This document shows, one piece after another, positions 2,617-62,591 of a stretch of DNA of 64,000 nt. This DNA comes from a virus: IMG/VR virus record IMGVR_UViG_3300046323_000673, positions 19,861 through 83,860 of that record; one strand, 5' to 3'. Made by a program: the position numbers and the translations under genes. Within the stretch, counting starts at the first letter, position 1. Each line of letters begins with the position of its first letter. The notes beneath the pieces are model-generated. The model did no database searches and had not been told where the DNA came from. It saw nothing but the letters and a program-made list of their open reading frames with translations.

Positions 2617-2646
2617 AAATCCAATTGGATCGATCCAATTGGATTT
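2617..2646. promoter_or_regulatory. 30-bp palindrome, copy P1 (exact)
   Basis: Exact copy of the window-wide palindrome: AAA, TCCAATTGGA, TCGA, TCCAATTGGA, TTT. To its right is CGTCGAG then TAACAT at 2654-2659 and an AGAGGG ribosome site before ATG 2671, so it is placed like a promoter/operator for the next gene. Confidence 0.85.
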
Positions 2647-2670
2647 CGTCGAGTAACATAGAGGGTCGTC

Positions 2671-3231
2671 ATGTTAGCAAGCGTCGAACGAGTGATCATT
2701 TGGGATGGTACGGGACAAGAACGGGTTGGAACTTTGGTGTATCCGAGTCCCGCGTTGTCGAGTGAGGAGGACAACGGGCGCATCATCACGCTTCCAACCG
2801 ACGAACGATTGTTTGGCAAGAGCGCGCTTGGTGGGCTCTTCATTCGTCATTGGGGCGGCGGGGTGAAGTTCACGTCGATGCAGCCGCAACGACATTGCCC
2901 GATGGTCCTGCATGTTTCGTCGGACTTGTCGTTTCTGCATTGGGTGCTGCGCATTGAAAAGGCCGATTCGAAAGCGGATGTACGCGGCACACTCGCGATC
3001 GTCGGAACGAACGATCCGGTGATTCAATCGGTCGGGGTATTGTCCGCGATAGGGCGCACCGTTGACCTGTCGTCGCTCGGGGAAGCCGACAAGCAAGGTG
3101 GGTGGTTCATCAAGGGCAAATCGGTCCTACGCACAATGCAGGACGGGCTTTGCCCATTGATGGTGCAAGCGGTGAGTGACAACTTGCGCGTGAGGTGGAC
3201 GGCGCTCACCCAAAGTCGAAGCGAGGAATGA
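2671..3231 (+). CDS. Hypothetical protein, 186 aa
   Basis: Mixed alpha/beta protein without recognised motifs; a segment such as MVLHVSSDLSFLHWVLRIEKAD suggests a beta-rich fold. It is the first gene downstream of palindrome P1, with GAGGG eight bases before the ATG. Its stop overlaps the next start (ATGA), so it heads a short operon leading to the portal gene. Confidence 0.65.
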   Translation: MLASVERVIIWDGTGQERVGTLVYPSPALSSEEDNGRIITLPTDERLFGKSALGGLFIRHWGGGVKFTSMQPQRHCPMVLHVSSDLSFLHWVLRIEKADSKADVRGTLAIVGTNDPVIQSVGVLSAIGRTVDLSSLGEADKQGGWFIKGKSVLRTMQDGLCPLMVQAVSDNLRVRWTALTQSRSEE

Positions 3232-3485
3232 ACGTGTTGAAGAAGCTTGGGGCGTTCATCTGGTTCGTGTACGATGTTGGGCGCCTCCTGTTCACTCGCG
3301 AATACAACGAACCTGATACGCCCCCGAACGACGACGATGAAGGCGAGCACGTACCAACAACACCCGTCGTGCACGTGTCGCCTGATGCATCGCGGATGAT
3401 CTCCCGTCCCAAGCCGGTCATCGCACCGGCAATCGACGAACCACTTGAAGGCAGCATCGAAGCTCGCCGACGCATGATCAACTGA
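3228..3485 (+). CDS. Small membrane-anchored-like protein, 85 aa
   Basis: Start chosen at ATG 3228, which overlaps the upstream TGA and is preceded by GAGGA. The N-terminus MNVLKKLGAFIWFVYDVGRLLF is positively charged then hydrophobic, so it could be a membrane anchor or amphipathic helix. An acidic, Pro-rich linker (residues 25-75) follows. Function unknown. Confidence 0.55.
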   Translation: MNVLKKLGAFIWFVYDVGRLLFTREYNEPDTPPNDDDEGEHVPTTPVVHVSPDASRMISRPKPVIAPAIDEPLEGSIEARRRMIN

Positions 3486-3805
3486 TGTTCACAGTGATCA
3501 ATGGCCATTCTGTCGATATTGTGGAGAGCGAGTTTCGTAGACGATTTCACGTGGAAGTCGCGCACGTCATCGATGAGATTCACGCAATGAATCTCATCGA
3601 GTCGGTTGGTGGACACGTTCCATTTCGCCGAAGACAATCCGTCGAAATGACGCTTAAACACTTGTTGTCGATCGGCTCGTACCCAGACGACAAGCTGCAA
3701 GCATCCCTGAAACATCCGACAACCGTTACATCGCAACCCACCATGAGGTTTATGGTTGGCGTCGTATCGCGTCTTTTTGGCGACGTTGGAGATGATTCAC
3801 GGTAG
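3485..3805 (+). CDS. Hypothetical protein upstream of portal, 106 aa
   Basis: The ATG shares its A with the preceding TGA (TGATG), a sign of coupled translation. No motif is recognised in this basic protein. It ends eight bases before the portal start; its place suggests an early packaging or head gene, but nothing in the sequence proves that. Confidence 0.5.
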   Translation: MFTVINGHSVDIVESEFRRRFHVEVAHVIDEIHAMNLIESVGGHVPFRRRQSVEMTLKHLLSIGSYPDDKLQASLKHPTTVTSQPTMRFMVGVVSRLFGDVGDDSR

Positions 3806-3813
3806 AAGGAACC

Positions 3814-5916
3814 ATGGGTTTCTTCCGCAACGATGGGCAAACGTTCCCCGGCCCCGCATTCCCCATTCAATCCACCGTGCGCGGCACGAACGGCACGATA
3901 TACGCCGTGAGTTCGTTTGGCGTGGATGACACGACGTTTGGCCCGTCGTTCCGCCCGCAAAGTCTTGTCGAGAACGACCGACATAGGACGCTCGACTTCC
4001 GCCGGAAGTTCTACAATTGCACACAGCACGACCACAAGATCTACGATATGTCGGGGCGGATGAACCGGGGTGGGCAGATGGCCCTTATGCAACCCCTGCT
4101 TTCCTCGCAACCCCCGCCGTTTTACGTGCCCCTTGATCAACGTCGGCCGAACAACCCGTATCGACTCGCGCGATTGATCGTGCAGGCGTTCACGAACTTC
4201 GTATTCGGTGAACATCGATTCCCGAAGATCAAATGCACGGGCGATACCGACGCGGAAGACTTCGCAGACGCGCTTGTGCAGGCGAGCGACCTACCCACTG
4301 TGATGATTCGCGCACGCAACATGGGCGGGTCATGCGGAAGCGTTGGCCTATCGTGGCGGTTCTATCAGGGCAAACCATGCGTGCGTGTGCATTCCGCGGC
4401 GAACGTGTACGTGCACGAATGGGTTGATCGTGATGAAGGCGTCGTCGCGCACGTGAGCGAGATCTATCTCGTGTATCGGGATGTTTGGAACGACAAGGCA
4501 AAGAAGCAGGAACGAGCCCCGCATTGGTACCGTCGCGATTGGACACCCACCGCCGATATCGTGTTTGTCGAACAGCCATTGAACAAGGACGGGGGTGCTA
4601 ACGAGTGGGTTGTCGATGAAGATCAAACGGTCGTGCACGATGACGGGTTTGCCCATTTCGTCTGGATTCCAAATCAACCGAGTGACGACGACGAAAGCGA
4701 ATACGACGGCGAACCCGATTACGAGGGGTTATTCGAGCAAGCCAACACGATCGATATGCTCAACAGCGTGCTCGCGACGGGCACAGTGCGAAACCTTGAT
4801 CCCACGCTCGTATTGAAGCTATCGACCGAACAGCAAGAGATGCAGAAGCGCGGCGTGTCTAAAGGAAGCGACAATGCGTTGAACGTCGGCGAATCGGGTG
4901 ATGCGAAGTATTTGGAACTCGGGGGCACGGCTGCATCGACGGGCATTGCGCTCTTGAAGCAGCAACGGCAATTCGCGCTCGAGGTCGCACAGTGCGTGAT
5001 TCCCGACCCGAACGAGATTGCAGCAGCAGCAACGTCGGGGCGTGCGATCGAATTGCTCTATGCACCCATGGGCGCGAAATCATCCATATTCCAAGCGCAA
5101 TATGGCAAGGGCATCACGTCGCTTGTTACGCAGATGATCACGAGTGCTCGAAAGCGAATGCCGACAACGAACGAGGATGGATCACTTGAATACCCGCTCG
5201 AACTCGATGGCGAGACGGGGTTGATGGTCCCCGTCGAATACTTCCTCGACTTGCCCCCACGCGAGATCACCGAAGCGGTTGTCGACCCGATATCGGGATT
5301 GCCCACGGGTGAGAACAAGATCGTCGGGTATGAGCAGCGCAAGCCGGGCAAGGGGCGAGTGTTCGTGTGCGAATGGCCGAAACGATTCGGAACGACAGAC
5401 ACTGACGATCAATCAGCCGCAACGACAACCGCGACAAGCACGGGCGGGAAAGCATTCGTGTCGCAACGAAGCGCGGTGGAATCGTTTGCAAAGCGTATGG
5501 GCCGTGATCCACACGAAGAATGGAAGCGCGTACTTGAGGAAAAGAAGCAGGCAGACGAACGTGAACAAGGGATGTTCCCCGGCACGGGCGGGGCAGTGGC
5601 GTCGTCGTTGGGTGCTGATACGGGTCAAGCGTCAGTTGACGACGTGGAAGAGCAGGACGGGGCGATTGCGGGCGAGCAAGGGGGGGGCAATGACGTCGCG
5701 CCTGTGCCCACTGAGATCGAACCGTCGCTTGTGCTTAACGGTGCACAGATACAAGCGGCACTCGAAATCGTGCAGCAGGTCGTCACGCAACAAATCCCAC
5801 GTGATACAGCGATCGGCCTGCTCAAGATCGGGTTCAATATGACCAACGCACAATCAATCGAGATCCTTGGTTCGGCTGGTCGTGGGTTTGTTCCTGCATC
5901 GCAAGACGGCAACTGA
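3814..5916 (+). CDS. Portal protein
   Basis: This 700-residue protein has the size, composition and position of a tailed-phage portal of the SPP1 gp6-like class: an N-terminal arm, a DFRRKFYN/YDMSGRMNRGG region, a central beta-rich stretch (VRVHSAANVYVHEWVD), a helical crown region (about residues 300-460, including AATSGRAIELLYAPM) and an acidic, Gln-rich C-terminal tail. Portals form the dodecameric ring through which DNA enters and leaves the capsid. It directly precedes the MuF-like gene with a one-base overlap (TGATG), the usual portal then MuF order. No terminase gene precedes it in the window. Confidence 0.85.
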   Translation: MGFFRNDGQTFPGPAFPIQSTVRGTNGTIYAVSSFGVDDTTFGPSFRPQSLVENDRHRTLDFRRKFYNCTQHDHKIYDMSGRMNRGGQMALMQPLLSSQPPPFYVPLDQRRPNNPYRLARLIVQAFTNFVFGEHRFPKIKCTGDTDAEDFADALVQASDLPTVMIRARNMGGSCGSVGLSWRFYQGKPCVRVHSAANVYVHEWVDRDEGVVAHVSEIYLVYRDVWNDKAKKQERAPHWYRRDWTPTADIVFVEQPLNKDGGANEWVVDEDQTVVHDDGFAHFVWIPNQPSDDDESEYDGEPDYEGLFEQANTIDMLNSVLATGTVRNLDPTLVLKLSTEQQEMQKRGVSKGSDNALNVGESGDAKYLELGGTAASTGIALLKQQRQFALEVAQCVIPDPNEIAAAATSGRAIELLYAPMGAKSSIFQAQYGKGITSLVTQMITSARKRMPTTNEDGSLEYPLELDGETGLMVPVEYFLDLPPREITEAVVDPISGLPTGENKIVGYEQRKPGKGRVFVCEWPKRFGTTDTDDQSAATTTATSTGGKAFVSQRSAVESFAKRMGRDPHEEWKRVLEEKKQADEREQGMFPGTGGAVASSLGADTGQASVDDVEEQDGAIAGEQGGGNDVAPVPTEIEPSLVLNGAQIQAALEIVQQVVTQQIPRDTAIGLLKIGFNMTNAQSIEILGSAGRGFVPASQDGN

Positions 5917-6914
5917 TGAAGCGCGCATCGCCCCTCGAAATCCTTCAACGTTCCCGACAACGCGCGCTCGACTTCGCGGGCAAAGCGGGCACGGCGCGGA
6001 TGCGTCACGTGTTGGAAAAGGCCCAACGCGATATGGAACGGCGGTTGAAGGAAACCGAGGGGCTGGGCGGGGCAGGCAGTGGAAGCTTCACCGCTGCCCA
6101 ATTGCGCACAACGTTGGCCCAAGTGCGTGACGTATTGCGTGCGACGGCATTGCCAGGGATGCAAAGCGATATCGTGGACGTTGGGAAGATGGCGGCGGAA
6201 AGCGCGGCGCAATCAACGATCGAATACATACGCGCGAGCGACAAGGCGTTCACGGGGCTTGGTCGTTCCCTCGCAATCGATAACGCGGCGCTTTACGATG
6301 TTGCCGTGCGAGGGTCGGAAGCGAGCATCTTGCGTCGCATTGGCTCGAACCCGAAAGACCCTCGTTCGTTGGGCGTGTTGCAGCGGTATGGGATCAACAC
6401 GGTTGGCGCGTTCGAGGGCGTGTTGCAACAACGATTGATTGCACAGAAGCCATGGGCAGACGTGCGCAAGGAACTGATTGAAGAGTCGCCGTTTCTGCAA
6501 GGCCAACCGATGCATTGGGCGGAACGCATTGTTCGAACCGAGGTCATGGGCGCCAACAACTTCGCGTCGAATTCGGCGATCACTGAATTGAATGAGCAGC
6601 TCGACGACATGCTGAAGATCAATTCAGCGACGTTCGACAACCGTACAAGTGCCGATAGCTACGCGGTGCACGGGCAGATACGTCGCACGAACGAGGCATT
6701 TGATTCGTGGTGGGGGAGCTTTATGCATCCACCGGATAGGCCGAACGATCGCAGTGTGGTCGTGCCGCACCGGATGTCGTGGCCATTGCCCGCTGGATTG
6801 AAGCCCAAGAGTGATGGGGAGATCGCCGCACGTTGGGCAATGGAAGGGCGGAAGGGTTCACCACCGGCACGGCCGCGAATCAGCACGGTGCCGATGGATC
6901 AATTGCGGAAGTGA
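5916..6914 (+). CDS. MuF-like minor head protein
   Basis: A 332-residue protein directly after the portal. The region AERIVRTEVMGANNFASNSAITELNEQLDD (about residues 205-235) matches the RTE helix typical of Mu gpF/SPP1 gp7 minor head proteins, and the later HPPDRPNDRSVVVPHR replaces the usual HPNCRC segment. Such proteins bind the portal and are injected or help head assembly. The N-terminal half is helical and basic. The start shares a base with the portal stop, so translation is likely coupled. Confidence 0.75.
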   Translation: MKRASPLEILQRSRQRALDFAGKAGTARMRHVLEKAQRDMERRLKETEGLGGAGSGSFTAAQLRTTLAQVRDVLRATALPGMQSDIVDVGKMAAESAAQSTIEYIRASDKAFTGLGRSLAIDNAALYDVAVRGSEASILRRIGSNPKDPRSLGVLQRYGINTVGAFEGVLQQRLIAQKPWADVRKELIEESPFLQGQPMHWAERIVRTEVMGANNFASNSAITELNEQLDDMLKINSATFDNRTSADSYAVHGQIRRTNEAFDSWWGSFMHPPDRPNDRSVVVPHRMSWPLPAGLKPKSDGEIAARWAMEGRKGSPPARPRISTVPMDQLRK

Positions 6915-6985
6915 ACCGTCAAGTAACCCGTGCAATATATTCCAGCACTCGACGAACATCCCTTCCTCGCGATACCCTCACGTGT

Positions 6986-7240: not shown

Positions 7241-7258
7241 TACGTTCAACAAGTAACC

Positions 7259-7288
7259 AAATCCAATTGGATCGATCCAATTGGATTT
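7259..7288. promoter_or_regulatory. 30-bp palindrome, copy P2 (exact)
   Basis: Exact copy. On its right is CATCGAG then TAACGA at 7296-7301 and AAGGG before ATG 7314. The right flank is nearly identical to that of P16 (49621 onward) although the downstream genes are unrelated, so the flank is part of the conserved unit. Confidence 0.85.
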
Positions 7289-7313
7289 CATCGAGTAACG
7301 AAGGGATTTGGTC

Positions 7314-7589: not shown

Positions 7590-7592
7590 TCA

Positions 7593-8003: not shown

Positions 8004-8023
8004 GTCGGAGGACACGGACGAAC

Positions 8024-8704: not shown

Positions 8705-8726
8705 TAACAAACGGAGGAAGGTCGTC

Positions 8727-9695: not shown

Positions 9696-9710
9696 GTCAC
9701 CCTCCCAACG

Positions 9711-9740
9711 AAATCCAATTGGATCGATCCAATTGGATTT
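9711..9740. promoter_or_regulatory. 30-bp palindrome, copy P3 (exact)
   Basis: Exact copy between scaffold and major capsid genes. No TAACAT box follows; instead a sigma70-like -35 (TTGACG, 9765) begins 24 bases to its right. Confidence 0.85.
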
Positions 9741-9764
9741 CGTGATCCATCCCATCACAATCCA

Positions 9765-12406: not shown

Positions 12407-12436
12407 AAATCCAATTGGATCGATCCAATTGGATTT
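12407..12436. promoter_or_regulatory. 30-bp palindrome, copy P4 (exact)
   Basis: Exact copy lying between convergent genes (the + gene ends at 12394 and the - gene ends at 12448). It is the only copy clearly between two gene ends. Neither flank carries a TAACAT or CATGAT box. Confidence 0.85.
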
Positions 12437-14720: not shown

Positions 14721-14750
14721 AAATCCAATTGGATCGATCCAATTGGATTT
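14721..14750. promoter_or_regulatory. 30-bp palindrome, copy P5 (exact)
   Basis: Exact copy between divergent genes. On the minus side CACG then CATGAT leads to ATG 14704; on the plus side TGTGATGCTACC leads to ATG 14772. It is a clear bidirectional arrangement. Confidence 0.85.
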
Positions 14751-18199: not shown

Positions 18200-18221
18200 C
18201 AAATCCCTACGTTACTCGACG

Positions 18222-18251
18222 AAATCCAATTGGATCGATCCAATTGGATTT
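18222..18251. promoter_or_regulatory. 30-bp palindrome, copy P6 (exact)
   Basis: Exact copy. The CGTCGAG plus TAACGT flank lies on its left side, pointing leftward into the antisense of the tube gene, while a sigma70-like promoter for the chaperone gene begins 30 bases to the right. Confidence 0.85.
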
Positions 18252-22101: not shown

Positions 22102-22131
22102 AAATCCAATTGGATCGATCCAATTGGATTT
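22102..22131. promoter_or_regulatory. 30-bp palindrome, copy P7 (exact)
   Basis: Exact copy between divergent genes. On the minus side GTG then CATGAT follows at once; on the plus side TACACT lies about 25 bases away before the gene at 22206. Confidence 0.85.
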
Positions 22132-23229: not shown

Positions 23230-23259
23230 AAATCCAATTGGATCAACCCAATTGGATCT
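23230..23259. promoter_or_regulatory. 30-bp palindrome, copy P8 (3 mismatches)
   Basis: The most divergent copy: the central TCGA is TCAA with a further C change and TTT reads TCT. It lies between divergent genes, with CATGAT nine bases to its left (minus direction) and GATACC to its right before GTG 23279. Confidence 0.75.
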
Positions 23260-24744: not shown

Positions 24745-24774
24745 AAATCCAATTGGATCGATCTAATTGGATTT
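24745..24774. promoter_or_regulatory. 30-bp palindrome, copy P9 (1 mismatch)
   Basis: One C to T change in the right TCCAATTGGA block. On the right, TGCCGTG then TAACAT (24782-24787) ends six bases before ATG 24794; on the left, CATGAA leads to the minus-strand gene. Both sides carry a -10-like box. Confidence 0.85.
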
Positions 24775-26788: not shown

Positions 26789-26818
26789 AAATCCAATCGG
26801 ATCGATCCAATTGGATTT
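26789..26818. promoter_or_regulatory. 30-bp palindrome, copy P10 (1 mismatch)
   Basis: One T to C change in the left block (AATCGG). To the right CACCG then TGATACA stands before ATG 26839; to the left GGGTGCTG then CATGAA. Both sides are promoter-like. Confidence 0.85.
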
Positions 26819-28705: not shown

Positions 28706-28735
28706 AAATCCAATTGGATCGATCCAATTGGATTT
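28706..28735. promoter_or_regulatory. 30-bp palindrome, copy P11 (exact)
   Basis: Exact copy between divergent genes. On the minus side CGTCGTGG then CATGAA; the plus side lacks a clear -10 box near the palindrome. Confidence 0.85.
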
Positions 28736-31593: not shown

Positions 31594-31623
31594 AAATCCA
31601 ATTGGATCGATCCAATTGGATTT
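31594..31623. promoter_or_regulatory. 30-bp palindrome, copy P12 (exact)
   Basis: Exact copy between the gpJ-like gene and the tRNA-like element. Neither flank shows TAACAT or CATGAT close by. The next TAACAT is 232 bases to the right, immediately before the following gene. Confidence 0.85.
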
Positions 31624-33861: not shown

Positions 33862-34959
33862 ATGTCGAACGTTTTGTCCGACGAGAAGCGTCTTGCCGTT
33901 CTTGCGGCATTGGTGGACGGCAATTCTGAGCGTGCGGTCGAACGCATGACCGACGTTGATCGGAAGACGGTTCGTCGACTTGCGATTGCGTTGGGTGAAG
34001 GTGCGGTCAACCTGCACAATCGTCTCGCGCGTGGGTTGTCGTGCTCTCTTGTCCAAGTCGATGAGATTTGGTCGTACGTGCAGAAGAAGGAAGCTCGCGT
34101 CACTGAGAAGGACGGCCCCGACGTAGGAGAGGCGTACACGTTCGTCGCGTTGGATTCGTCATCGCGGTTTGTCATTGGTTGGCACGTGGGCAAGCGTGAC
34201 CAAGCGTCGACAGACACCTTCATGCAGGACGTGCGTGCGCGGCTCGTTGTTATGCCCGCCATGACGTCGGACGGGTTCGCGCCGTATATCAGTGCGATCG
34301 GTGCGTCGTTCGGTCCTGGCATCGATTACGCGCAAACGATCAAGAATTACGGAAGCAAGGGACGTCGCGAGGGCGGATCGGATCACCGCTACGAGCCCCC
34401 TCGTGACCCGTTCATCACGAAGAAAAGCATCTTCGGCGCTCCGAACCTTGAACGCGCGAGCACGGCCTACGTAGAGCGAAACAACGGGACAATGCGCCAT
34501 CACATTGGACGCATGCGCCGCTTGTGTTTGGCATTTTCCAAGAAACTTCCGAACCATCGCGCGGCAATTGCGTTGGCGTACGTGCACTACAACCTTTGCC
34601 ACGTGGTCTCTACGTTGCGCGTAACGCCCGCGATGGCGGCGCACGTGACGGATCATGTTTGGGATCTTCGGGAGTTACTTGCGGCGTTGCTTGACGCTGC
34701 TCCTTGTGAAGCACCGGAGAAGCAGGTCCTTGCGTCTCGCGTGCCCGAAGTGACGCACCGCGAGCTTCCGAATAATCGCGGCTTTCTTCGGGTCGTGGAC
34801 GGCGGGAAAGCCAAACCTGTAGCGCCTACGCCGATCGCCCCTGTACCCGTTCCAATGGTTGCGACGGTAGCCGAACCCGAAATACCACGGGGGACGCAGC
34901 TCGATCTTTTTGCCTGGAAAACACGTGAAAGACAGCTTTCGCTGTTTCCCGATGCGTAA
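33862..34959 (+). CDS. IS1-family DDE transposase
   Basis: Start ATG 33862 with GAGGGG upstream. Residues 1-50 are a helix-turn-helix region (EKRLAVLAALVDGNSERAVERMTDVDRKTVRRLA). Catalytic segments follow: VDEIWSYV (first Asp, about residue 67), TSDGFAPYI (second Asp, about 136), and YVERNNGTMRHHIGRMRRLCLAFSKKLPNH (Glu), then LRVTPAMAAHVTDHVW, all typical of IS1-family transposases. The C-terminus is extended and carries QLDLF and QLSLF, two sliding-clamp-binding-like motifs. It acts on the element's ends by cut/copy of DNA; details are family knowledge. Confidence 0.9.
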   Translation: MSNVLSDEKRLAVLAALVDGNSERAVERMTDVDRKTVRRLAIALGEGAVNLHNRLARGLSCSLVQVDEIWSYVQKKEARVTEKDGPDVGEAYTFVALDSSSRFVIGWHVGKRDQASTDTFMQDVRARLVVMPAMTSDGFAPYISAIGASFGPGIDYAQTIKNYGSKGRREGGSDHRYEPPRDPFITKKSIFGAPNLERASTAYVERNNGTMRHHIGRMRRLCLAFSKKLPNHRAAIALAYVHYNLCHVVSTLRVTPAMAAHVTDHVWDLRELLAALLDAAPCEAPEKQVLASRVPEVTHRELPNNRGFLRVVDGGKAKPVAPTPIAPVPVPMVATVAEPEIPRGTQLDLFAWKTRERQLSLFPDA

Positions 34960-38486: not shown

Positions 38487-38516
38487 AAATCCAATTGGAT
38501 CGATCCAATTGGATTT
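38487..38516. promoter_or_regulatory. 30-bp palindrome, copy P13 (exact)
   Basis: Exact copy between divergent genes. The minus side has TGTGTGC then CATGAA towards the MazG-like gene; the plus side leads to a near-consensus sigma70 promoter 38 bases away. Confidence 0.85.
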
Positions 38517-38554
38517 TGTCGGCAGTAGTACGAAAAGAAAACAAACAACATCAC

Positions 38555-38583
38555 TTGACACCCTAGGCATCATGCCCTATATA
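38555..38583 (+). promoter_or_regulatory. Strong sigma70-like promoter, cassette A
   Basis: TTGACA (38555-38560), a 17-bp spacer and TATATA (38578-38583). The 55-base leader that follows closely matches the leader of the promoter at 39591 (shared TATATATGGGTTGTCGACGG and ACAAGGGAGC). Confidence 0.8.
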
Positions 38584-38632
38584 TGGGTTGTCGACGGCGC
38601 GATGAGTGCTGCAACAAGGGAGCTGGACGAAG

Positions 38633-38836
38633 ATGAACATCGGGGACGTGGTAACCGCAAAGGTTCGATGTGAAGTGGTTGAGCTTGTTGTGTCGTCGGT
38701 GATTCAGGTTTCCGACGCGATGAAGCAAGCCAAGCCCGGTATTGTGTGTACGATCATCGCAGAAGGCAGCCACAAGCGTACGCAGTTGTGCAAGATCGCT
38801 GACGTGTTCTCTGATGGTTGCGTTGCTTGGATGTGA
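38633..38836 (+). CDS. Small beta-rich protein of cassette A, 67 aa
   Basis: Start ATG 38633 with AAGGGAGC upstream. The sequence MNIGDVVTAKVRCEVVELVV...KRTQLCKIADVFSDGCVAWM suggests a small SH3-like or OB-like beta barrel. It is expressed from the strong promoter at 38555 and followed by a hairpin. Function unknown; a short highly expressed host-takeover or regulatory protein would fit, but that is inference. Confidence 0.6.
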   Translation: MNIGDVVTAKVRCEVVELVVSSVIQVSDAMKQAKPGIVCTIIAEGSHKRTQLCKIADVFSDGCVAWM

Positions 38837-39513: not shown

Positions 39514-39543
39514 AAATCCAATTGGATCGATCCAATTGGATTT
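39514..39543. promoter_or_regulatory. 30-bp palindrome, copy P14 (exact)
   Basis: Exact copy. CATCGGG plus TAACAT is on its left side and points leftward into the noncoding block; the sigma70-like promoter of cassette B lies 47 bases to its right. Confidence 0.85.
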
Positions 39544-39590
39544 GCATTTTGGTTGTTGAACGTACCGAAAATAAAAAGATCAAGATCGTC

Positions 39591-39619
39591 TTGACTACCT
39601 AGACAACATGCCCTATATA
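39591..39619 (+). promoter_or_regulatory. Strong sigma70-like promoter, cassette B
   Basis: TTGACT (39591-39596), 17-bp spacer, TATATA (39614-39619). The spacer end CATGCCC and the following leader match cassette A at 38555, showing duplication of the control region. Confidence 0.8.
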
Positions 39620-39668
39620 TGGGTTGTCGACGGCGTGATGGGTGCCGAGACAAGGGAGCAAGACGCGC

Positions 39669-39902
39669 ATGAACACGACGGACGCAAACGGCAAGACCCT
39701 AGATCAAGCTCGTGAATACGCACAGGCCACCGCGAACAAGCTTGGCGCGTCCACGAACGATCGAGTCGTCACGCTGAACCAGCTCTACCATTCGAAGCGT
39801 CGCTGGTCATACGGCGTGCGCTTTGAACTTCCAGGCGATTTGACGACGAAGGTCGTGGACGGCTCGCGCATCGAATCGGTTGAACAGTTTTACCCACAAT
39901 GA
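39669..39902 (+). CDS. Small protein of cassette B, 77 aa
   Basis: Start ATG 39669 with AAGGGAGCAAG upstream. The sequence has a helical first half (DQAREYAQATANKLGASTND) and a strand-rich second half (RRWSYGVRFELPGDLTTKVVDGSRIESVEQFYP). It is unrelated to the cassette A protein although promoter, leader and terminator are shared. Function unknown. Confidence 0.6.
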   Translation: MNTTDANGKTLDQAREYAQATANKLGASTNDRVVTLNQLYHSKRRWSYGVRFELPGDLTTKVVDGSRIESVEQFYPQ

Positions 39903-42581: not shown

Positions 42582-44081
42582 GTGAAGCGGATATCCATTA
42601 CGATCGACAACAGATTGCGTATGCGTGCGAGCGATCTCGATTCCGAGACGCTTACCCACCTGCAACGCGAATTCACCCACCGCAACCCCCAAAAGGCCAA
42701 GCTCGAAAAGCAGACGGAAGGCGCGAAGTACAATCGCGCCAAACCGTTCCTGAAGTTCGCCCTTGCGAAAAGCGCAGCCGCACAACCCGCGACGATTTCG
42801 ACGTGGGCATTGAATGGCGACGAACTCACGTTCCCCCGTGGCGGGCGCGAACGATTGACGTTCATGCTTGAGGATCGCGATTACTTGGTCGACACGATTG
42901 ATCAACGCACGGACGGCACGCTTCCCTGGCCGAACGCGCGCTACACGGGCGAGCTATGGGACTTTCAGCAACGCATGGTTGAGACGGGCATGCAGGTTGA
43001 GGAAGGCATCGCGCGTAGCCCTACAGGCTCGGGAAAGACCGAAGCAATCATCGGGCTTATGTGCGAAGCGAATCTGCCATCACTCGTGATCGTGCATGGG
43101 CACGCATTGCTTGATCAATGGATTCGTCGGGTGCGGCAATCGACGAATATCAATGATATCGGAATCATTGGCGATGGGAAGTTTGACCCGAAGCCGATTA
43201 CAATCGGGATGCAGCAAACGCTTGCTCGCCGAATCGATAAGGTTAGAGGGTTTTTTGGGTTCGTCGCGTGTGACGAGGCGCATCTATTCGCGGCTGATAC
43301 GTTTCTTGAAGTGGTTGATCAATTGCCTTCGCGGTACCGGGTTGGATTCACCGCGGACGAACACCGTAAAGATGGGAAGGAATTCCTGCTCTACGATACG
43401 CTTGGGCCTGTCTTCGCGGAAGTGAAGGAAAAGAAGCTTGTTGATGAAGGGTACATTCTGGACGTCGAAGTTCGCCTTGTGCCCACAGGTTTCGAGCGGC
43501 AATGGTGGACCGATCTTCACCCGCAAGCACGCGGAATGGAAATGCTTCGGCTTATTAACGAAATGGGCGAAGACAACGAACGGAACGCAATCGCTACCCA
43601 AATCGCGTTATGGGCAGCGCGGGAAGGGCACCAAGTGCTTGTGATGGCGCATCACACCGTGCATTGTCGTCGACTGCTTGCCGATATTGCCGCGTCAAAC
43701 CCGCGCGTTGGATTGCTTATCGGCGAAGACAAAGACGCGTACGTGCGAGGTATCGCAGGAATGATGCAGGGTTCCGTTCAGATCGGCGTTGGTACCTACA
43801 AGAAGATGGGTACCGGCATTGATTTGAAGGCATTGTCAAGGGGTGTTGCCGTCACGCCGGTGCACTTGAACAAGTTTTTCCTGAAGCAACTGAAGGGTCG
43901 GTTCTGTCGCACTGCTACCGATAAAGCAGATTCGGCGATCTACGTGCTGTACGACGAATTGATCTTCGGACTCGCGCCAGTGGAAAACTTCAAACGTTGG
44001 GCGTCACGTGTGCTTGTGCGTGATGATGACCAATGGATTGACGCGAAAGAATACTTGAAGCGCGAGAAGGCCGAATCATGA
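42582..44081 (+). CDS. SF2 DNA helicase/translocase
   Basis: About 499 residues from GTG 42582 (TTG 42552 and ATG 42621 are alternatives). Helicase motifs of superfamily 2 are clear: QQRM near the Q region, SPTGSGKTE (motif I, about residue 147), CDEAHLF (DEAH-box motif II), VGFTADEHR (motif III region), and a C-terminal domain with VLVMAHHTVHC and KGRFCRTA (motif VI-like Arg finger). The design resembles phage UvsW/RAD25-like helicases used in recombination and origin handling. It leads the replication module. Confidence 0.85.
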   Translation: MKRISITIDNRLRMRASDLDSETLTHLQREFTHRNPQKAKLEKQTEGAKYNRAKPFLKFALAKSAAAQPATISTWALNGDELTFPRGGRERLTFMLEDRDYLVDTIDQRTDGTLPWPNARYTGELWDFQQRMVETGMQVEEGIARSPTGSGKTEAIIGLMCEANLPSLVIVHGHALLDQWIRRVRQSTNINDIGIIGDGKFDPKPITIGMQQTLARRIDKVRGFFGFVACDEAHLFAADTFLEVVDQLPSRYRVGFTADEHRKDGKEFLLYDTLGPVFAEVKEKKLVDEGYILDVEVRLVPTGFERQWWTDLHPQARGMEMLRLINEMGEDNERNAIATQIALWAAREGHQVLVMAHHTVHCRRLLADIAASNPRVGLLIGEDKDAYVRGIAGMMQGSVQIGVGTYKKMGTGIDLKALSRGVAVTPVHLNKFFLKQLKGRFCRTATDKADSAIYVLYDELIFGLAPVENFKRWASRVLVRDDDQWIDAKEYLKREKAES

Positions 44082-44620
44082 GAACGATGAAACCGCTTCC
44101 ACCATTGCCGAATCACGTGCTTGCAAAGCAGGGCCTTGGCGCGTGGGTTGAGCAGGTGAATCAAAAGGCGATATCGAAACCGCCCAAAAAGAAAGCGAAG
44201 TACACGCCTCGTTCGGTCAGTGGGTATGAGCAGGCGCGCACGCAAGCCGACGTGTTCGCCAAGTCGGGCACGTGGGGCGATGCCGAACCGCGGCACTTGG
44301 TTGGCCTTTATGCGCTCTTGCATGAGCAAGTCTATGGCGTACCGCCCGAGGAATTGAAAGACGCTTGGAAGACGGCTGTAGGCGCGGCAAAGTACATGCT
44401 CGAAAACGAGTTCGCGGGGGACATGCGCGCTCTTATCGAGTTCGTTCGTTGGGTGTGGAAGAAGGAGCGCCGGCGGGAAGATATGCGCAAGGCGAATCCG
44501 GGTGATGACGGGTTCCGCATCGGTTGGCGATATCAATTCAAAAACAAGACATTGCTCACGGATTACCGCGTTGAATTGGCACGTGCAATTGAGGCAGCAA
44601 CGCCCAAGGGGAAGCGATGA
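44078..44620 (+). CDS. Hypothetical protein before DnaB, 180 aa
   Basis: Overlaps the helicase stop (ATGA) and the dnaB-like start. It has a basic N-terminus (ISKPPKKKAKYTPRS) and helical remainder (KDAWKTAVGAAKYMLENEFAGDMRALIEFVRWVWKKERRRED). Its place directly ahead of a DnaB-type helicase would suit a helicase loader, but no AAA+ motif is present. Role unknown. Confidence 0.5.
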   Translation: MRTMKPLPPLPNHVLAKQGLGAWVEQVNQKAISKPPKKKAKYTPRSVSGYEQARTQADVFAKSGTWGDAEPRHLVGLYALLHEQVYGVPPEELKDAWKTAVGAAKYMLENEFAGDMRALIEFVRWVWKKERRREDMRKANPGDDGFRIGWRYQFKNKTLLTDYRVELARAIEAATPKGKR

Positions 44621-46254
44621 GAGCACGAACAGCAGCGGGCAAAGTGGATGCGTCAACATCCGTCGTGTCGTCGACTGATGCGTTCCTTGGGTCGTATTCA
44701 CCCCCGAACTTGCAAGCTACGTCCGGAAATCCAATTGGATCGATCCAATTGGATTCGAAGGGGAAGGCAGCAGCAAGCAAGCCATCACTCAAGGGCGAGA
44801 CGATCAAGATCCCCATGCCCGAACCAGTGGGCGAGATCGTCATCATCGGCGCGGCATTGGTTGACCATGATGCACGTGCGCGCCTCGTGAAGGCATTACC
44901 AAGCGATTCGTTTTACGCGAAAGGGCATTCTGAGATCTGGTCTGTGATTGCCGAGCTTGAACGTAAGGGGCTTGCGTATGACCCATTGACGGTGCAACAA
45001 ATCAGTAATGGGCGGGTTGATACGAGCTACCTTGATTCGATTATCACGCAACGCCCGGTCGTGCCCCCGAATCTCGACTTTCATATTGAATCGTTGAAAT
45101 GGTATCGGACCCGCGTTGAATTCATTAAAGGTCCACTTACTTCGACGCTTGAATTGGTGAAGGATCCAAACGCGGATATCGAAACGATCAAGCGCGCGGT
45201 GGATCAACAAGCCGCCACGTTGAAAAGCTCGGGGACGCATCGGTACTTGCGTGATTCGCAAGTGCTCGTTCGTGAGCAGATGGCGGCGATTCGTGCGCGT
45301 CGTGGGGGCGCGGCTGTGTACCCGTTCGGGATTGATGGGTTTGACGTGTACGGGAAGGACGAAAAGCTCGACGACGGCACCGACATATCGAATACGTGGC
45401 GGGTGATCCCCGGTTGTGCACCGACGAAAACAACGGTTGTCACGGGCGTCTCAGGTTCGGGCAAAACGACAGTGACGGCGAACATTGCCCTTGCCCAAGT
45501 CAATGCAGGGCGTCGTGTGCTTTACGGCGCGTGGGAACAGGGTTCGGGCATGACGCTCGAAATGATGGCGGCGCATTCACTCGGCATATCGAAAAGTCGA
45601 TTGATGACGGGCCACATGACCGATGATGAGGACGTTGCAATCGAGCAAGAAATGGATCGCATTGGCGCGTATGTGAAGTTCTTCGACGTGCCGTTTGGGC
45701 GCAAGCAGGGCGAGCGGGTAATCAACGATCGCACGCTCGATACGATCGCCGAGTATATCATCGCGAGTCGATGCGAGGTTGCGATCTTTGACCTATGGCG
45801 TCGTGCACTTCGTCAATTTGATCCGGATGAAGAAGAAGCAGCGCTTTACCGGCAACAATCGATTGCAGAAGAAACGAAGGTTCATCAGATCCTTATTCAT
45901 CAGCAGCGATTGAAAGACCTTGAGCAGCGCGAGGACAAGCAACCCACACGCGAGGGGTTGAAGGGTTCGGGCGCGTGGGTTGAGATGCCAGATACGATCA
46001 TCGGCGTTCACCGGGAAAGCCTGTTCAAGGCAGTCCCGAGCGATGTCATTCGATTGATTCTGCTCAAACAACGATATGGGGTTTGGCCGCTCGCAGTGGA
46101 TCTCGATTTCAATCCTGATACGGGCTGCATGTTGAATGGAAGAAGCGCGAACTTTGCCGTTCGTGGGGGCACCAAGGAAGGGTTTGACGCGTTCCTCGAC
46201 AAGCCGGTTGAGATGAACCGGCAATCAAATCGACGCGGCGGGCGTAGGTCATAA
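44617..46254 (+). CDS. dnaB-like: DnaB-type replicative helicase
   Basis: Start ATG 44617 with AAGGGGAAG upstream. The N-terminal domain of the DnaB family appears at residues 70-160 (IIGAALVDHDARARLVKALPSDSFYAKGHSEIWSV). The RecA-like motor follows: GVSGSGKTT (Walker A, about residues 277-284), EVAIFDLWRRAL (Walker B), and LKGSGAWVEMPDTIIGVHRE. It unwinds DNA ahead of the fork. Residues 38-46 (NPIGSIQLD) are encoded by palindrome copy P15, a unique coding use of the repeat. The true N-terminus could also be internal. Confidence 0.88.
   Translation: MRARTAAGKVDASTSVVSSTDAFLGSYSPPNLQATSGNPIGSIQLDSKGKAAASKPSLKGETIKIPMPEPVGEIVIIGAALVDHDARARLVKALPSDSFYAKGHSEIWSVIAELERKGLAYDPLTVQQISNGRVDTSYLDSIITQRPVVPPNLDFHIESLKWYRTRVEFIKGPLTSTLELVKDPNADIETIKRAVDQQAATLKSSGTHRYLRDSQVLVREQMAAIRARRGGAAVYPFGIDGFDVYGKDEKLDDGTDISNTWRVIPGCAPTKTTVVTGVSGSGKTTVTANIALAQVNAGRRVLYGAWEQGSGMTLEMMAAHSLGISKSRLMTGHMTDDEDVAIEQEMDRIGAYVKFFDVPFGRKQGERVINDRTLDTIAEYIIASRCEVAIFDLWRRALRQFDPDEEEAALYRQQSIAEETKVHQILIHQQRLKDLEQREDKQPTREGLKGSGAWVEMPDTIIGVHRESLFKAVPSDVIRLILLKQRYGVWPLAVDLDFNPDTGCMLNGRSANFAVRGGTKEGFDAFLDKPVEMNRQSNRRGGRRS
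44727..44756. promoter_or_regulatory. 30-bp palindrome, copy P15 (1 mismatch, inside dnaB-like gene)
   Basis: The final T is C. It lies in the coding leader of the helicase gene, is in frame and contains no stop in any of the six frames. Neither flank has TAACAT. Gene-internal location argues against a plain transcription terminator. Confidence 0.8.
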
Positions 46255-46255
46255 A

Positions 46256-47227
46256 ATGCGAATCATTAACATTCTCAACCTACTCGAACGGTTGGGAATC
46301 AAAACGAAACCAAAGGGGCGCGAGCTTTGGGCTTGTTGCCCATTGCATGAAGAGCGCACACCGTCCTGGCAGATTCGCGACGACGCTGATGATCCGATCA
46401 AGCACGGGCGATGGCGATGCCTTGGGAAGTGCCACACCGGCGGCGGACCGATATCGCTCGTGATGCACGTGCTCAACCTGGACTCAAAAGCCGCATGGGA
46501 ATGGATCAAGTCGGGAAGCACGCACGAACGCGTTGTGCTGGGTATTGACTTCGATTCGACGGGCCCCGATCTTTCAAGGCATGTGTTTGGGTTTCAAATC
46601 CCCCAAGGGGTTGAGTTTGCGCCCCTGTTTGATTGGCCCAAACCCGCGTCGCAATACCTCGAGCAACGAAAAGTCACGGCTGAACAAGTCGACAAGTGGG
46701 GTATCGGGTTTGCTCGTGATGGGAAGCTCGCGAAGCGTATTGTGTTTCCGTGGCGTGAAGCATCGGGCAAGCTCCTTGGGTACACGGCGCGGGCGTATGT
46801 GCCACACGAGAAGCGATATCTTGAGCCAAGTGAGAAGGAAGGGGCGTCAAGGGGTGCGGTGTTCGGTGAGGAGCACTGGCCCCCGCCGGGTGATGCTCGA
46901 GATGTTGTTGTCGTTGTTGAAGGCGCGTTCGATGGGCTTGCGATTGAACGTGCGACGGGGATCCCGTTCGGTGCGCCGAATGGATCAAACTTCCTCCCCT
47001 CGCATGCGAACAAGATCTCGACGTTCAAAAGGATCATTACCGCGACGGACCCTGATGCAGCGGGGGCGGCGTTCCAAGCGGCGGTTGAGACGTTGTCCCG
47101 TCATTCGCAGGTGATTCCGATTGAATTGCCGATAGATGCAAAGGGCGGAAGGTTTGACCCCGCACGACTTGCGACCGAACGCGGAAACGACGAATTGCGC
47201 AAGATCATCATGGGGGCGATATCGTGA
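46256..47227 (+). CDS. DnaG-type primase
   Basis: A 323-residue protein with a CHC2 zinc-binding region at the N-terminus (CPLHEE at residues 28-33 and WRCLGKCHTGGG at 53-64) and a Toprim-like core further on (VVVVEGAFDGLAIERATG, then ITATDPDAAG). It makes RNA primers for replication. It is separated from the helicase stop by one base and overlaps the next gene, so helicase and primase are probably co-translated. Confidence 0.88.
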   Translation: MRIINILNLLERLGIKTKPKGRELWACCPLHEERTPSWQIRDDADDPIKHGRWRCLGKCHTGGGPISLVMHVLNLDSKAAWEWIKSGSTHERVVLGIDFDSTGPDLSRHVFGFQIPQGVEFAPLFDWPKPASQYLEQRKVTAEQVDKWGIGFARDGKLAKRIVFPWREASGKLLGYTARAYVPHEKRYLEPSEKEGASRGAVFGEEHWPPPGDARDVVVVVEGAFDGLAIERATGIPFGAPNGSNFLPSHANKISTFKRIITATDPDAAGAAFQAAVETLSRHSQVIPIELPIDAKGGRFDPARLATERGNDELRKIIMGAIS

Positions 47228-47565
47228 AGAGTAAGAATCCTGTATCTAGGAAAAACCCTAGTTCGCGTTGGGGACAAACGCTCAATCAATATGGGCTTGC
47301 AGCCGCAATCGAATTGCTGAAGGGTTTACTTGCCGAAACGGGCGGCAATGTTCGTCGTGCGAGTGCATTGCTTGGCAAACGTCGTGAGGACGTGGTTGAC
47401 CTTATCGACAAGCACGGCCTGAAGGGGTACGTTCAAGAGCAGCGGCGACTACTCGCGGACCGAAAGACGCAATCCAAGTCGTGGATTGAACAAACACAGA
47501 AGGAGCTTTGCGATGGACCAGCAGATTCAGGCGATGGCGATGGCGTACCAGGGGATGGCGGCTGA
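47224..47565 (+). CDS. Fis-like helix-turn-helix protein, 113 aa
   Basis: Start GTG 47224 overlaps the primase TGA. Residues 25-70 (AAIELLKGLLAETGGNVRRASALLGKRREDVVDLIDKHGLKGYV) match the C-terminal helix-turn-helix of Fis/NtrC proteins, with the GGN...AALLG signature. This suggests DNA binding at replication or transcription sites. The C-terminal 30 residues are acidic and overlap the next small gene in another frame. Confidence 0.65.
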   Translation: MKSKNPVSRKNPSSRWGQTLNQYGLAAAIELLKGLLAETGGNVRRASALLGKRREDVVDLIDKHGLKGYVQEQRRLLADRKTQSKSWIEQTQKELCDGPADSGDGDGVPGDGG

Positions 47566-49590: not shown

Positions 49591-49620
49591 AAATCCAATT
49601 GGATCGATCCAATTGGATTT
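49591..49620. promoter_or_regulatory. 30-bp palindrome, copy P16 (exact)
   Basis: Exact copy. CATCGAG then TAACGA (49628-49633) and AAGGG follow on the right before ATG 49646, as at P2. The gene it controls encodes a sigma-factor-like protein. Confidence 0.88.
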
Positions 49621-49645
49621 CATCGAGTAACGAAGGGATCGTCTT

Positions 49646-50335
49646 ATGGCTAGAGCGGGTCGTCAGGGTTTGAACGATGCGTTGATGGACTTGCGTGAGG
49701 GAAGGATCAACCTTGCGCGATTCTTTCAGCTTGCGGAAAAGGACATTCAACGAATGGCGGATGCGCTGTATTCGCGGTGGGTGCTTCCGCCGGGCGTGTC
49801 GTCGGATGATCTTTGCCAAGAAATGCGCGTTGGGGTATTGATGCACCGGTGGGATCTCGGTTGGGTTCCTGGTACGCGCAATAAAAAAGGTGCATTGATA
49901 TCAATTAGCGTGCATTTCAATTGGCGAATGCACGTGCACGGCAAACGTTGGCTGCACGAACAACGGGGCGCGCATCGTCGCAGTGGGCATGCAATGTCGA
50001 GGTTCCCGATATGCATGGCATTCTTTCGTGATGATGATTACGAAGGTGACGAGTTTGACCGTTTTGGTCAAACCATTGATTCATCCGCGGCACAAGAGCA
50101 GGCCAATAAGGAAATCGTTTTGGCGGCGTATGACAAGCTGCCTTTTGAGAAGGCCACCGCGTGGGCTGTGTACGTCGCTGAAGGCGATGAAGAGCAGGCG
50201 GCAAAGCGTATCGACGCGTCGGCGGGACTTGGGAGTGCATGCCACGCTTCGACGATTGTCGAGGCTCGCAAGGTGGTAAAGCGGGCAGTGAAGGACGGCC
50301 GGGCGCTTGCTCGTGCCATGAATGCATCGGCGTAG
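49646..50335 (+). CDS. Sigma-70-like transcription factor (candidate)
   Basis: A 229-residue protein. Residues 30-100 fit sigma-70 region 2: helices with ADALYSRWVLPPGVSSDDLCQEMRVGVLMHRWDLGWVPGTRNKKGALISISVHFNWRMHVHGKRW, including the DDLxQEMRVGVLxAxxRWD-like core. A C-terminal part (LAAYDKLPFEKATAWAVYVAEGDEEQAAKRIDASAG...ARKVVKRAVKDG) resembles region 4 or a helical substitute. It could redirect RNA polymerase to phage promoters. Matching to sigma family is by pattern only; an alternative is an unrelated helical protein. Start ATG 49646, AAGGG upstream. Confidence 0.6.
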   Translation: MARAGRQGLNDALMDLREGRINLARFFQLAEKDIQRMADALYSRWVLPPGVSSDDLCQEMRVGVLMHRWDLGWVPGTRNKKGALISISVHFNWRMHVHGKRWLHEQRGAHRRSGHAMSRFPICMAFFRDDDYEGDEFDRFGQTIDSSAAQEQANKEIVLAAYDKLPFEKATAWAVYVAEGDEEQAAKRIDASAGLGSACHASTIVEARKVVKRAVKDGRALARAMNASA

Positions 50336-54332: not shown

Positions 54333-54362
54333 AAATCCAATTGGATCGATCCAATTGGATTT
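54333..54362. promoter_or_regulatory. 30-bp palindrome, copy P17 (exact)
   Basis: Exact copy between the polymerase and the next gene. On the right CGTGATG then CATGAT (54370-54375) stands upstream of AGGAGGT and ATG 54397. Confidence 0.85.
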
Positions 54363-54365
54363 CGT

Positions 54366-57058: not shown

Positions 57059-57073
57059 TTGAGGTAACCAATC

Positions 57074-58366: not shown

Positions 58367-58500
58367 ACTTGGAACAGTTCATAAATTCGTTTCTGTACAA
58401 CGCAGCAGTAGATGCGCTTGGTAGAAACGATTTGAATATCGATCAACAACAGGCAATTGATCGATTCTTTGATTGGTATTGGCGAGGTGCACGAACGTGA
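58363..58500 (+). CDS. Small protein, 45 aa
   Basis: GTG 58363 overlaps the RecA TGA and the TGA overlaps the following GTG (58497), so it fits a chain of coupled genes. The product is helical and aromatic-rich (MNLEQFINSFLYNAAVDALG...RFFDWYWRGART; first residue as Met). No known domain. Confidence 0.45.
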   Translation: MNLEQFINSFLYNAAVDALGRNDLNIDQQQAIDRFFDWYWRGART

Positions 58501-59252
58501 AGATCTTAGTTACCGGTGATTGGCACCTTGACGCACGCACGGCGGGCTTCGACAGGTTCGAGGATCTCCGGGCGGCGGTATCTTGGACAGTGGATATCGC
58601 GGATAGAGAGCACGTGGATCTCTACGTGATGCTTGGTGATCTTTGCGATCCTGATACGACGCGATCTCACCGTTCAATCGGGCTTGCTTGCGAGACGGCG
58701 GCAAACCTTGCGGACCGCGGGATTGCGCAGGTGTGGATCTCCGGCAACCACGACGTGATCGAGGACGGGTCGGGTAGCACGACGATGGCGGCGCTTGCGG
58801 GCTGGTCCGGCTTGCGCCGTTTTCGTTCCGATAAGAATCAGTTCGCGCGCATGTTCCAAGTCGCGGAAACTCCCATGCATATCCCGCGATTCATGGGCAC
58901 GACCAATGACGTGATTCTGTTCCCATTCACTGCGCGAGTGAACGCATACGATCCGGTTCAATTCGTTGAACGAACATCACTTTCGCAGGGGTGCACGAAA
59001 GTGCTCGTGTTCGGGCACTTGAACGTGATTGGCGCGGATGATGGGAGCGAAACGGAAGACTTTCCCCGCGGGCGTGAGGTCGTGTTTCCGACTGACACAT
59101 TGCTCGCGAAGTGGGGTGATCTTTGCTTTCTTTCCAATGGGCACTACCATCGCCGGCAAGTCGTGCGTGGTGTTCGAATGCCGGGTGCGCTTGGTCGACT
59201 CGGGTTTGGTGAAGTTGGGAATCCGGCGGGTGTGTTGATTGTCGAGGTGTGA
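58497..59252 (+). CDS. SbcD/Mre11-type nuclease
   Basis: Start GTG 58497. Metallophosphoesterase motifs are complete: GDWHLD (about residue 7), MLGDLCD, SGNHD, FGHLN and NGHYHRR. These bind two metal ions and cut DNA ends. It is 251 residues long, shorter than bacterial SbcD, as in phage gp47-type proteins. The SbcC/Rad50-like partner follows 31 bases downstream. Confidence 0.88.
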   Translation: MKILVTGDWHLDARTAGFDRFEDLRAAVSWTVDIADREHVDLYVMLGDLCDPDTTRSHRSIGLACETAANLADRGIAQVWISGNHDVIEDGSGSTTMAALAGWSGLRRFRSDKNQFARMFQVAETPMHIPRFMGTTNDVILFPFTARVNAYDPVQFVERTSLSQGCTKVLVFGHLNVIGADDGSETEDFPRGREVVFPTDTLLAKWGDLCFLSNGHYHRRQVVRGVRMPGALGRLGFGEVGNPAGVLIVEV

Positions 59253-59257
59253 AGATG

Positions 59258-59288
59258 CGCATGATGTCCCTCGAGGGATGAACATGCG
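59258..59288 (+). promoter_or_regulatory. Hairpin over the start of the SbcC-like gene
   Basis: CGCATG (59258-59263) pairs with CATGCG (59283-59288), and TCCCTCGAGGGA (59267-59278) is an internal palindrome that contains the GAGGG ribosome site. The start ATG (59284) lies in the stem itself. Folding would shut off translation. Confidence 0.5.
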
Positions 59289-61743: not shown

Positions 61744-61922
61744 GTGAAATGTTAAATCGAAAGTTTCCAAAATTGGACGAACCCGCTCGCGAAATCGTTT
61801 ATCGGGCATTGATGGCAGTTACGACAAATGACGATGAACATTGGAAGTCGGGTCGTGATTATGTTCACGATGGTGCTGATGAATGGTTGAAGGAGATCAA
61901 ACAAGATAACAGCAAGCCATGA
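61740..61922 (+). CDS. Small acidic protein, 60 aa
   Basis: GTG 61740 overlaps the SbcC-like stop; ATG 61749 is an alternative start. The product is short, acidic and helical (EPAREIVYRALMAVTTNDDEHWKSGRDY). It overlaps the next start (ATGA). Confidence 0.5.
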   Translation: MSEMLNRKFPKLDEPAREIVYRALMAVTTNDDEHWKSGRDYVHDGADEWLKEIKQDNSKP

Positions 61923-62539
61923 GAACACGACATAGCCCAACGTCAACCGTTCTCGCGCTTGACCCCGGTCTTGCACACGTGGGGTATATCCTTGCTCGTA
62001 TTTGGCGCGGGCAAGGATTCCAGTGTTCCCCATGGGATATCGAGGTTGTCGAGGCGGGGTTATGGATCGCGCCACTCCCCGATATCGACGAACGAGTTCT
62101 CGACGCAATCGACGACACGACGAATCGGGCGATGTTCCAATTGGGCAATGTGCTCGCGAAGTACACGCAGGAAGGCGCCTCCGTCATCGTCGCGGAAAAG
62201 ATCTCACACCCTCGTGACGCATCGACGGCGATCCAAGTCACCGCGTTTTGGGCGATGCTCACCTACGCATTGAAGCAGCAGGCGATTCCGTTCGTGGCAC
62301 TTCGGCCGCAAGATATTCGCACGACGTTGGGTCTTCCCAAGACCAAGGCGACGATGACTCGGAATGATAAGAAGAAGCTCGTGACGGACGAAATCGAACG
62401 CAGGTATGGGCAGCCCAAGCTGAAGACGCTCTTGAGGCATCTGACGCGCAAGGAAGACCGTTCGCACCCACTTGATGCGCTTGCTAGCTTCACCGCGGCG
62501 ATGATCAAACAGTTCGGTACGGACTGCACGTTTCGGTGA
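61919..62539 (+). CDS. RuvC-type Holliday junction resolvase
   Basis: A 206-residue protein with RNase H-fold motifs: ALDPGLAHVGY (first Asp, about residue 15), IVAEKIS (Glu), and a C-terminal HPLDALASFTAA (acidic Asp), together with RPQDIRTTLGLPKTKATM. These are the catalytic acidic residues of phage-type RuvC proteins. It would resolve recombination intermediates made by RecA before packaging. Coupled to the upstream small gene. Confidence 0.85.
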   Translation: MRTRHSPTSTVLALDPGLAHVGYILARIWRGQGFQCSPWDIEVVEAGLWIAPLPDIDERVLDAIDDTTNRAMFQLGNVLAKYTQEGASVIVAEKISHPRDASTAIQVTAFWAMLTYALKQQAIPFVALRPQDIRTTLGLPKTKATMTRNDKKKLVTDEIERRYGQPKLKTLLRHLTRKEDRSHPLDALASFTAAMIKQFGTDCTFR

Positions 62540-62561
62540 CGATCATCTATGTTGCTCGATG

Positions 62562-62591
62562 AAATCCAATTGGATCGATCCAATTGGATTT
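62562..62591. promoter_or_regulatory. 30-bp palindrome, copy P18 (exact)
   Basis: Exact copy. CATCGAG then CAACAT is on its left side, pointing leftward into the antisense of the RuvC-like gene; no box is visible on the right. Confidence 0.85.

Follow-up and report, generated by a model that had tools for sequence, protein, structure and literature searches.

The question addressed here is what reads a 30-bp nested palindrome that recurs, almost without change, throughout a phage genome, and to what end. The DNA is IMG/VR record IMGVR_UViG_3300046323_000673 (83,860 bp; labelled G000), of which positions 19861–83860 form the window, the whole 64,000-nucleotide stretch that was analysed; coordinates are those of the window unless given as record positions. 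Gene calls were made for this analysis and were poor in three relatives (G012, G023 and G027). A scan with the 24-bp core TCCAATTGGATCGATCCAATTGGA gave 18 matches in the window (15 exact and three with 1–2 mismatches) and none in 100 shuffles. All 18 starts listed in an earlier sequence-only reading were recovered, and its count of 14 identical copies and four with 1–3 changes was reproduced over the 30-bp unit, the divergent copies being those at 23230, 24745, 26789 and 44727. Extension of the scan to the full record, which that reading had proposed as a check, gave 23 copies, five of them exact ones outside the window; 19 of the 23 are identical over 30 bp. The half word TCCAATTGGA is almost absent outside the array sites. 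The sites in the window, none of which is assigned a strand, are as follows.

2617–2646, 30-bp nested dyad, exact; upstream of 2671–3231
7259–7288, exact; aligns dyad on dyad with L046:6984–7001
9711–9740, exact; aligns dyad on dyad with L046:9384–9401
12407–12436, exact; as far from the capsid gene as L046:12010
14721–14750, exact
18222–18251, exact
22102–22131, exact
23230–23259, three changes
24745–24774, one change
26789–26818, one change
28706–28735, exact
31594–31623, exact
38487–38516, exact
39514–39543, exact
44727–44756, one flank change; within the frame of a DnaB-like helicase, N-terminal part
49591–49620, exact; upstream of a sigma-like gene
54333–54362, exact
62562–62591, exact

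The copies had been described as standing between transcription units at 1–8 kb spacing. The spacing in the window is 1.0–8.2 kb and 17 of the 18 sites lie between genes; the description fails only for the copy inside the helicase frame. With the same gene calls, 22 of the 23 sites of the full record are intergenic. The sites of this phage are spaced more evenly than at random (CV of 0.51 versus 0.94, p = 0.0008), also when compared with random gene junctions (p = 0.002).

Beside many of the sites, on either side and in either orientation, stands an extended flank, TTTCRTCGAGTAACRTAGGG (2641–2661, 7283–7306 and 49615–49639; reversed at 18203–18225). A 95-nt leader is duplicated at 38554–38648 and 39590–39684, downstream of two array sites; both leaders carry a strong sigma-70-like promoter (TTGAC ... 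TATATAT), and an element resembling them comes after the array site at record position 6873. A transposase-like gene (IS1/rve type) is located inside the phage genome at 33862–34959.

The exact 24-mer had no match among the other viral contigs of IMG/VR or in 84,980 prokaryote genomes. The word is therefore not a generic host repeat, and a host-derived repeat was ruled out by the lack of a match in the prokaryote genomes; the concern that the motif might be common in hosts and unrelated phages was thus not borne out in the collections scanned. These scans were empty because each phage has a different word.

Relatives were drawn from IMG/VR by means of their tail sheath, capsid, primase and polymerase genes, and 32 further long contigs were read. 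Arrays were present in 26 of the 33 long genomes, this phage included, with 5–26 copies per genome; as the relatives were picked by homology, such counts are not independent samples, and IMG/VR contigs may be fragments. Nearly every array genome has its own palindrome (e.g. GATTGGAAACCCGGGTTTCCAATC or TGGAACTCGAGTTCCA), the copies of which are nearly identical within the genome. The words of the following relatives were recorded.

G004, GGATGATCGATCATCC
G007, G024 and G027 (shared), GGAAACCCGGGTTTCC
G008, TGGAACTCGAGTTCCA
G009, CGGTGATCGATCACCG
G011, GGAAGATCGATCTTCC
G012, ATAACACCGGTGTTAT
G013, GCCGGATCGATCCGGC
G015, CGCACGGCGCCGTGCG
G016, CCGACATCGATGTCGG
G017, CGAAAGTCGACTTTCG
G018, CGCGCCGCGCGGCGCG
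G020, CGAAAAGCGCTTTTCG
G021, GGGAACCCGGGTTCCC
G022, CCAAACCCGGGTTTGG
G023, GTAAACCGCGGTTTAC
G026, GACAGATCGATCTGTC

Arrays also occur in G030, G031, G032, G034, G035, G036 and G039, with those of G030 and G039 more degenerate and that of G031 consisting of five copies only. A scan for repeated palindromes found no array in G001, G014, G019, G025, G028, G029 or G033; a weak CACCCGGGTG present eight times in G001 was counted as no array. A repeated palindrome is evident at 40 of 82 capsid-gene loci, even in short stretches, and MAG contigs with capsid-gene matches (a proteobacterium, Armatimonadetes and Methylocystis) had no array within 12–21 kb. No close cultured phage is known for this lineage.

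Repeats of other kinds were also observed. In the array-less relative G014 a promoter-like repeat, GGGTTTCGGTTTATGGT, recurs many times in the early region (26.2–38 kb; L140), and G026 has, besides its palindrome array, nine copies of a second repeat, CCTTGACAGAAAC, which includes TTGACA. The unrelated Acidovorax phage Aval (L004), which has a ParB-like protein, carries a 14-bp palindrome, TGCACACGTGTGCA, three times (7663, 13370 and 20626).

A close relative, L046, has a capsid protein 86% identical to that of this phage. Its word, CTTTCGGATCGATCCGAAAG, is located at 273, 2577, 6984, 9384 (one mismatch) and 12010 (core coordinates), and the last four positions correspond to window cores 2620, 7262, 9714 and 12410. 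The pairings with 7262 and 9714 are alignments of dyad on dyad within homologous flanks, and those with 2620 and 12410 were assigned from the distance to the capsid gene and from alignments that are weaker. Both phages have the centre GGATCGATCC; the L046 copies differ in the outer arms, at half-site positions 6, 8 and 9 counted from the centre, and one of them has an additional change on one side. That all of the L046 copies changed in step at homologous junctions points to a co-evolving trans-acting reader, and we give this concerted change more weight than any other evidence for a reader that would act in trans. Taken with the different strict arrays in the relatives, it strongly supports the earlier proposal that some protein would read the sites.

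The L046 copies changed in place and not by transposition, which argues against a selfish self-copying repeat. This was considered together with an RNA-level element (a hairpin for RNA processing or a terminator acting in both directions). A 13-bp hairpin can form from the dyad, and a terminator scan picked up one copy, but nearly all words have complementary bases where the loop would be, the sequence itself and not merely its pairing is invariant, the stems are AT-rich or GC-rich depending on the phage, and the sites are evenly spaced; we regard both as scarcely credible. An intrinsic terminator or RNA hairpin was rejected on the invariance of the sequence and the lack of a sustained T-tract.

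Flank conservation is equal on both sides of the sites, and the site is therefore a true dyad of about 20–30 bp. The sites are symmetric and unoriented, with no promoter element common to the genomes. In this phage five of 23 downstream flanks and four of 23 upstream ones have TAnnnT at a distance of 10 bp from the core, and in G009 a −10-like element was found downstream only, at 4–7 of 19 sites. A promoter or −10 element at a fixed distance was rejected, being present at part of the G000 sites, on both sides, and at that minority of the G009 sites. The 412 sites of 23 genomes are placed more evenly than under uniform placement (combined Fisher p = 3e-28), with evenness not significant singly in five of the 23 (G023, G026, G034, G035 and G036), and the result also holds against random gene junctions in all five genomes so tested.

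Gene calls were usable in 16 genomes. Of the 296 sites there, 204 are intergenic (69%; 27 expected) and 48 (about 16%) lie deep in genes (210 expected); the motif is thus not equally frequent inside genes, an outcome that would have counted against the sequence-only reading. For intergenic sites between co-directional genes, the median distance is 13 bp from the previous stop and 38 bp to the next start, and intergenic sites are often 22–40 bp before a start codon. Sites within genes often fall in the one frame whose translation is a polar loop (TDDRSSV in G004, VGDRSPT in G009 and GTRVP in G008); other frames are also used, which places the constraint on the DNA. Site positions are mostly not conserved among distant relatives that share gene order. 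Strong positional conservation across these relatives was rejected, as it was mostly not above chance and weak for G007, G008 and G009 only.

This placement bears on the main rival of the architectural role proposed below, namely distributed operators or stoperators, in which a regulator at transcription-unit boundaries would block initiation and/or elongation, in the manner of Rep at cluster A stoperators or MrpR at SPBRE, and even spacing would reflect operon sizes. The intergenic share, the 38-bp median distance to the start and the TAnnnT flanks of this phage are all consistent with operators, as are the number, dispersal and between-phage divergence of the sites, which resemble those of stoperators (PMC6550527, PMC9283540). 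Operators are harder to reconcile with symmetric, unoriented sites that share no promoter element, with the 48 sites deep in genes, and with positions that mostly drift between distant relatives of shared gene order. There is also no sign of lysogeny: sequence profiles detected no tyrosine recombinase (PF00589) in 25 genomes and no serine recombinase (PF00239) in 15. A lysogeny repressor is less likely because no integrase-type recombinase was found. We consider distributed operators a possible explanation, but one with the odds against it.

Candidates for the reader were sought among the genes that accompany the arrays, which in this phage are the following.

44078–44620, + strand, conserved protein of ~165–180 amino acids (p165), present in 26 of 26 array phages
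44617–46254, + strand, DnaB-like replicative helicase, with an array site in its N-terminal part
46256–47227, + strand, DNA primase; belongs to the replication module found together with arrays
47224–47565, + strand, small Fis-type helix-turn-helix (HTH) protein, directly after the primase; best reader candidate
49646–50335, + strand, diverged sigma-70-region-2-like protein; family members match PF04542
51772–54315, + strand, family B DNA polymerase (PolB) of the replication module

The array follows the module of PolB, primase, p165 and Fis-like protein and not the capsid gene. G019, G028 and G029 have the capsid gene without the replication module and have no arrays; G032, G034, G035, G036 and G039 have no match to the capsid profile and have both the replication module and arrays. 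A capsid-linked origin of the array was rejected, since the array does not track the capsid gene.

The Fis-like protein, which is often a tandem pair, was found in 25 of the 26 array phages, beside the primase in 23 and elsewhere in G035 and G036. It was not detected in G039, which has an array, and is present in G014 and G033, in which no array was found. PF02954 (HTH_8) was matched above the cut-off in G004, G007, G008, G011, G016, G023, G024, G026, G030, G031, G032, G035 and G036; in this phage the HTH_8 match (record positions 67174–67236) is below the Pfam cut-off. The AlphaFold model of the protein of this phage has a confident helical HTH core, and the highest-probability PDB matches of the model in Foldseek were an NtrC-type DNA-binding domain and Fis, all with E > 1. 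Co-occurrence is not enough to pick out the Fis-like protein, because p165, the primase and the sigma-like protein co-occur too.

Covariation with the words was calculated for five proteins (Fis-type HTH, primase, PolB, p165 and sigma-like) using a partial Mantel test, which can be permissive, with the best of several HTH copies taken per genome. HTH similarity gave the best correlation with motif similarity of the five, although the effect is modest (r = 0.30, p = 0.001; primase, r = 0.23). Given primase and PolB, the partial r was 0.24 (p = 0.008), and for the outer half-site it was 0.29 (p = 0.004). Among the binders named at the outset (HTH, zinc-repeat and Fis-like proteins), the Fis-like protein beside the primase would be the best candidate for the reader. 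The p165 protein, for which no match was found in cultured phages, is a possible partner or reader.

The sigma-like protein is present in 25 of the 26 array phages (the exception, G017, is a partial contig). It lies near PolB in most of these phages, and region 4 was not recognised in the members scanned. The dyad might accordingly be part of a phage-specific promoter for this protein, as its co-occurrence with the arrays, the array site that precedes its gene in this phage and a weak correlation with the outer half-site (partial p = 0.045) would allow. Perfect dyad symmetry, the absence of any orientation to genes or of a constant downstream element, and the sites deep inside genes make such promoters highly improbable.

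A partition-like role was also weighed, in which the dyads would be loading sites of a ParB/KorB/Noc-type protein for genome segregation or spreading. The reader here would be a 675-residue ParB-like protein encoded upstream of the window (record positions 4819–6846), the nearest cultured matches of which are the ParB proteins of Variovorax phage VarioGold and Acidovorax phage Aval. It has both ParB_N (E = 6.9e-17) and HTH_ParB (2.6e-7) domains (L001:4819–6846), an array site lies 26 bp past its gene, and dispersed dyads are the targets of Noc and KorB (PMC4331003, PMC8429893, PMC11790492). No relative of it was found in the ten related phages searched with it, however, and ParB as a general reader was rejected on this basis; G004, G007 and G009 encode short ParB_N proteins in which inspection by eye showed no obvious HTH_ParB region, and ParB_N had no match in G008, whose array has 24 sites. 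Partition by this protein is very unlikely, and a centromere-like role of the sites is possible. The short ParB_N-domain proteins are encoded at 44754–46018 in G004, 46100–47457 in G007 and 89811–90563 in G009, and that of G004 adjoins a possible adenine methylase, as read from sequence.

The array was compared with known dispersed-site systems. The candidate reader has a Fis-type HTH (PF02954), like Fis and nucleoid-associated HTH proteins. Fis sites are degenerate, whereas each array phage uses a single long word that is nearly exact. Conceptually nearest are the stoperators of cluster A mycobacteriophages (L5, Bxb1). A genome has over 20 of them, dispersed and in many cases located in short gaps between genes, with a consensus and cognate Rep repressor for each phage group and a motif distance that follows repressor distance; stoperators are asymmetric 13-mers, bound by monomers and oriented with transcription, in temperate phages (PMC6550527, PMC9283540). 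The comparison with stoperators drawn in the sequence-only reading stands for the many (about 20) dispersed, phage-specific sites, with one consensus per genome and a mostly intergenic placement. It breaks down for the perfect 16–30-bp dyads, which are unoriented, evenly spaced, linked to the replication module and in about 16% of cases deep in genes. Stoperator phages are temperate, with an integrase or parABS, whereas here no tyrosine recombinase was found in the 25 genomes searched and no serine recombinase in 15, and this phage has a ParB-like protein.

In the Bacillus prophage SPbeta, the 15-bp SPBRE motif occurs in about 10 promoter regions and MrpR is a repressor with a tyrosine-recombinase fold (PMC10516654). 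In both systems a single element, specific to the phage, recurs in many intergenic regions, and for SPBRE one phage protein reads it; unlike in SPbeta, no PF00589 protein was found here by sequence profile. KorB–OB of plasmid RK2, Noc–NBS and ParB–parS combine dispersed palindromes with a dimeric reader and genome-scale action, and changes in the reader can switch specificity (PMC11790492, PMC4331003, PMC8429893, PMC7383237). In contrast, no common reader of the ParB family (ParB_N plus HTH_ParB) was found among the array phages searched. Stoperators and SPBRE were the only phage-wide arrays found in a literature search for palindrome arrays of this kind. We file the array as a dispersed-site system distinct from stoperators, SPBRE and KorB/Noc, and as a variant of the distributed-operator idea.

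Symmetric, unoriented and even sites, with positions that drift and a sequence that is strict, suggest action across the genome. It is about an even call that the sites bind a phage-encoded, dimeric, sequence-specific protein, probably of the Fis-type HTH kind, acting genome-wide as an architectural protein or roadblock. The small Fis-type protein, often a tandem pair, would be made together with the replication proteins and, less certainly, would hold one dyad every ~4 kb, dividing the genome into short intervals. Once bound, it would limit transcription read-through and organise replicating DNA, and would not serve as the operator protein of particular promoters. Word and reader would change together, giving each phage lineage a private system. 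A bolder version, which we offer tentatively and think rather unlikely, is that the Fis-type protein pins the genome at a private dyad every 4–5 kb as a phage chromatin, with domains that would tell self DNA from that of the host or of rival phages, in dozens of mutually blind specificities.

At least 20 natural pairs of sites and candidate readers are available in one phage family, and they make the co-change of a DNA-binding protein's word with some 20 dispersed sites directly testable. The words can be used as signatures to assign contigs of this uncultured lineage. If the architectural reading is true, the arrays would represent a viral genome-organising system not previously described in the literature searched.
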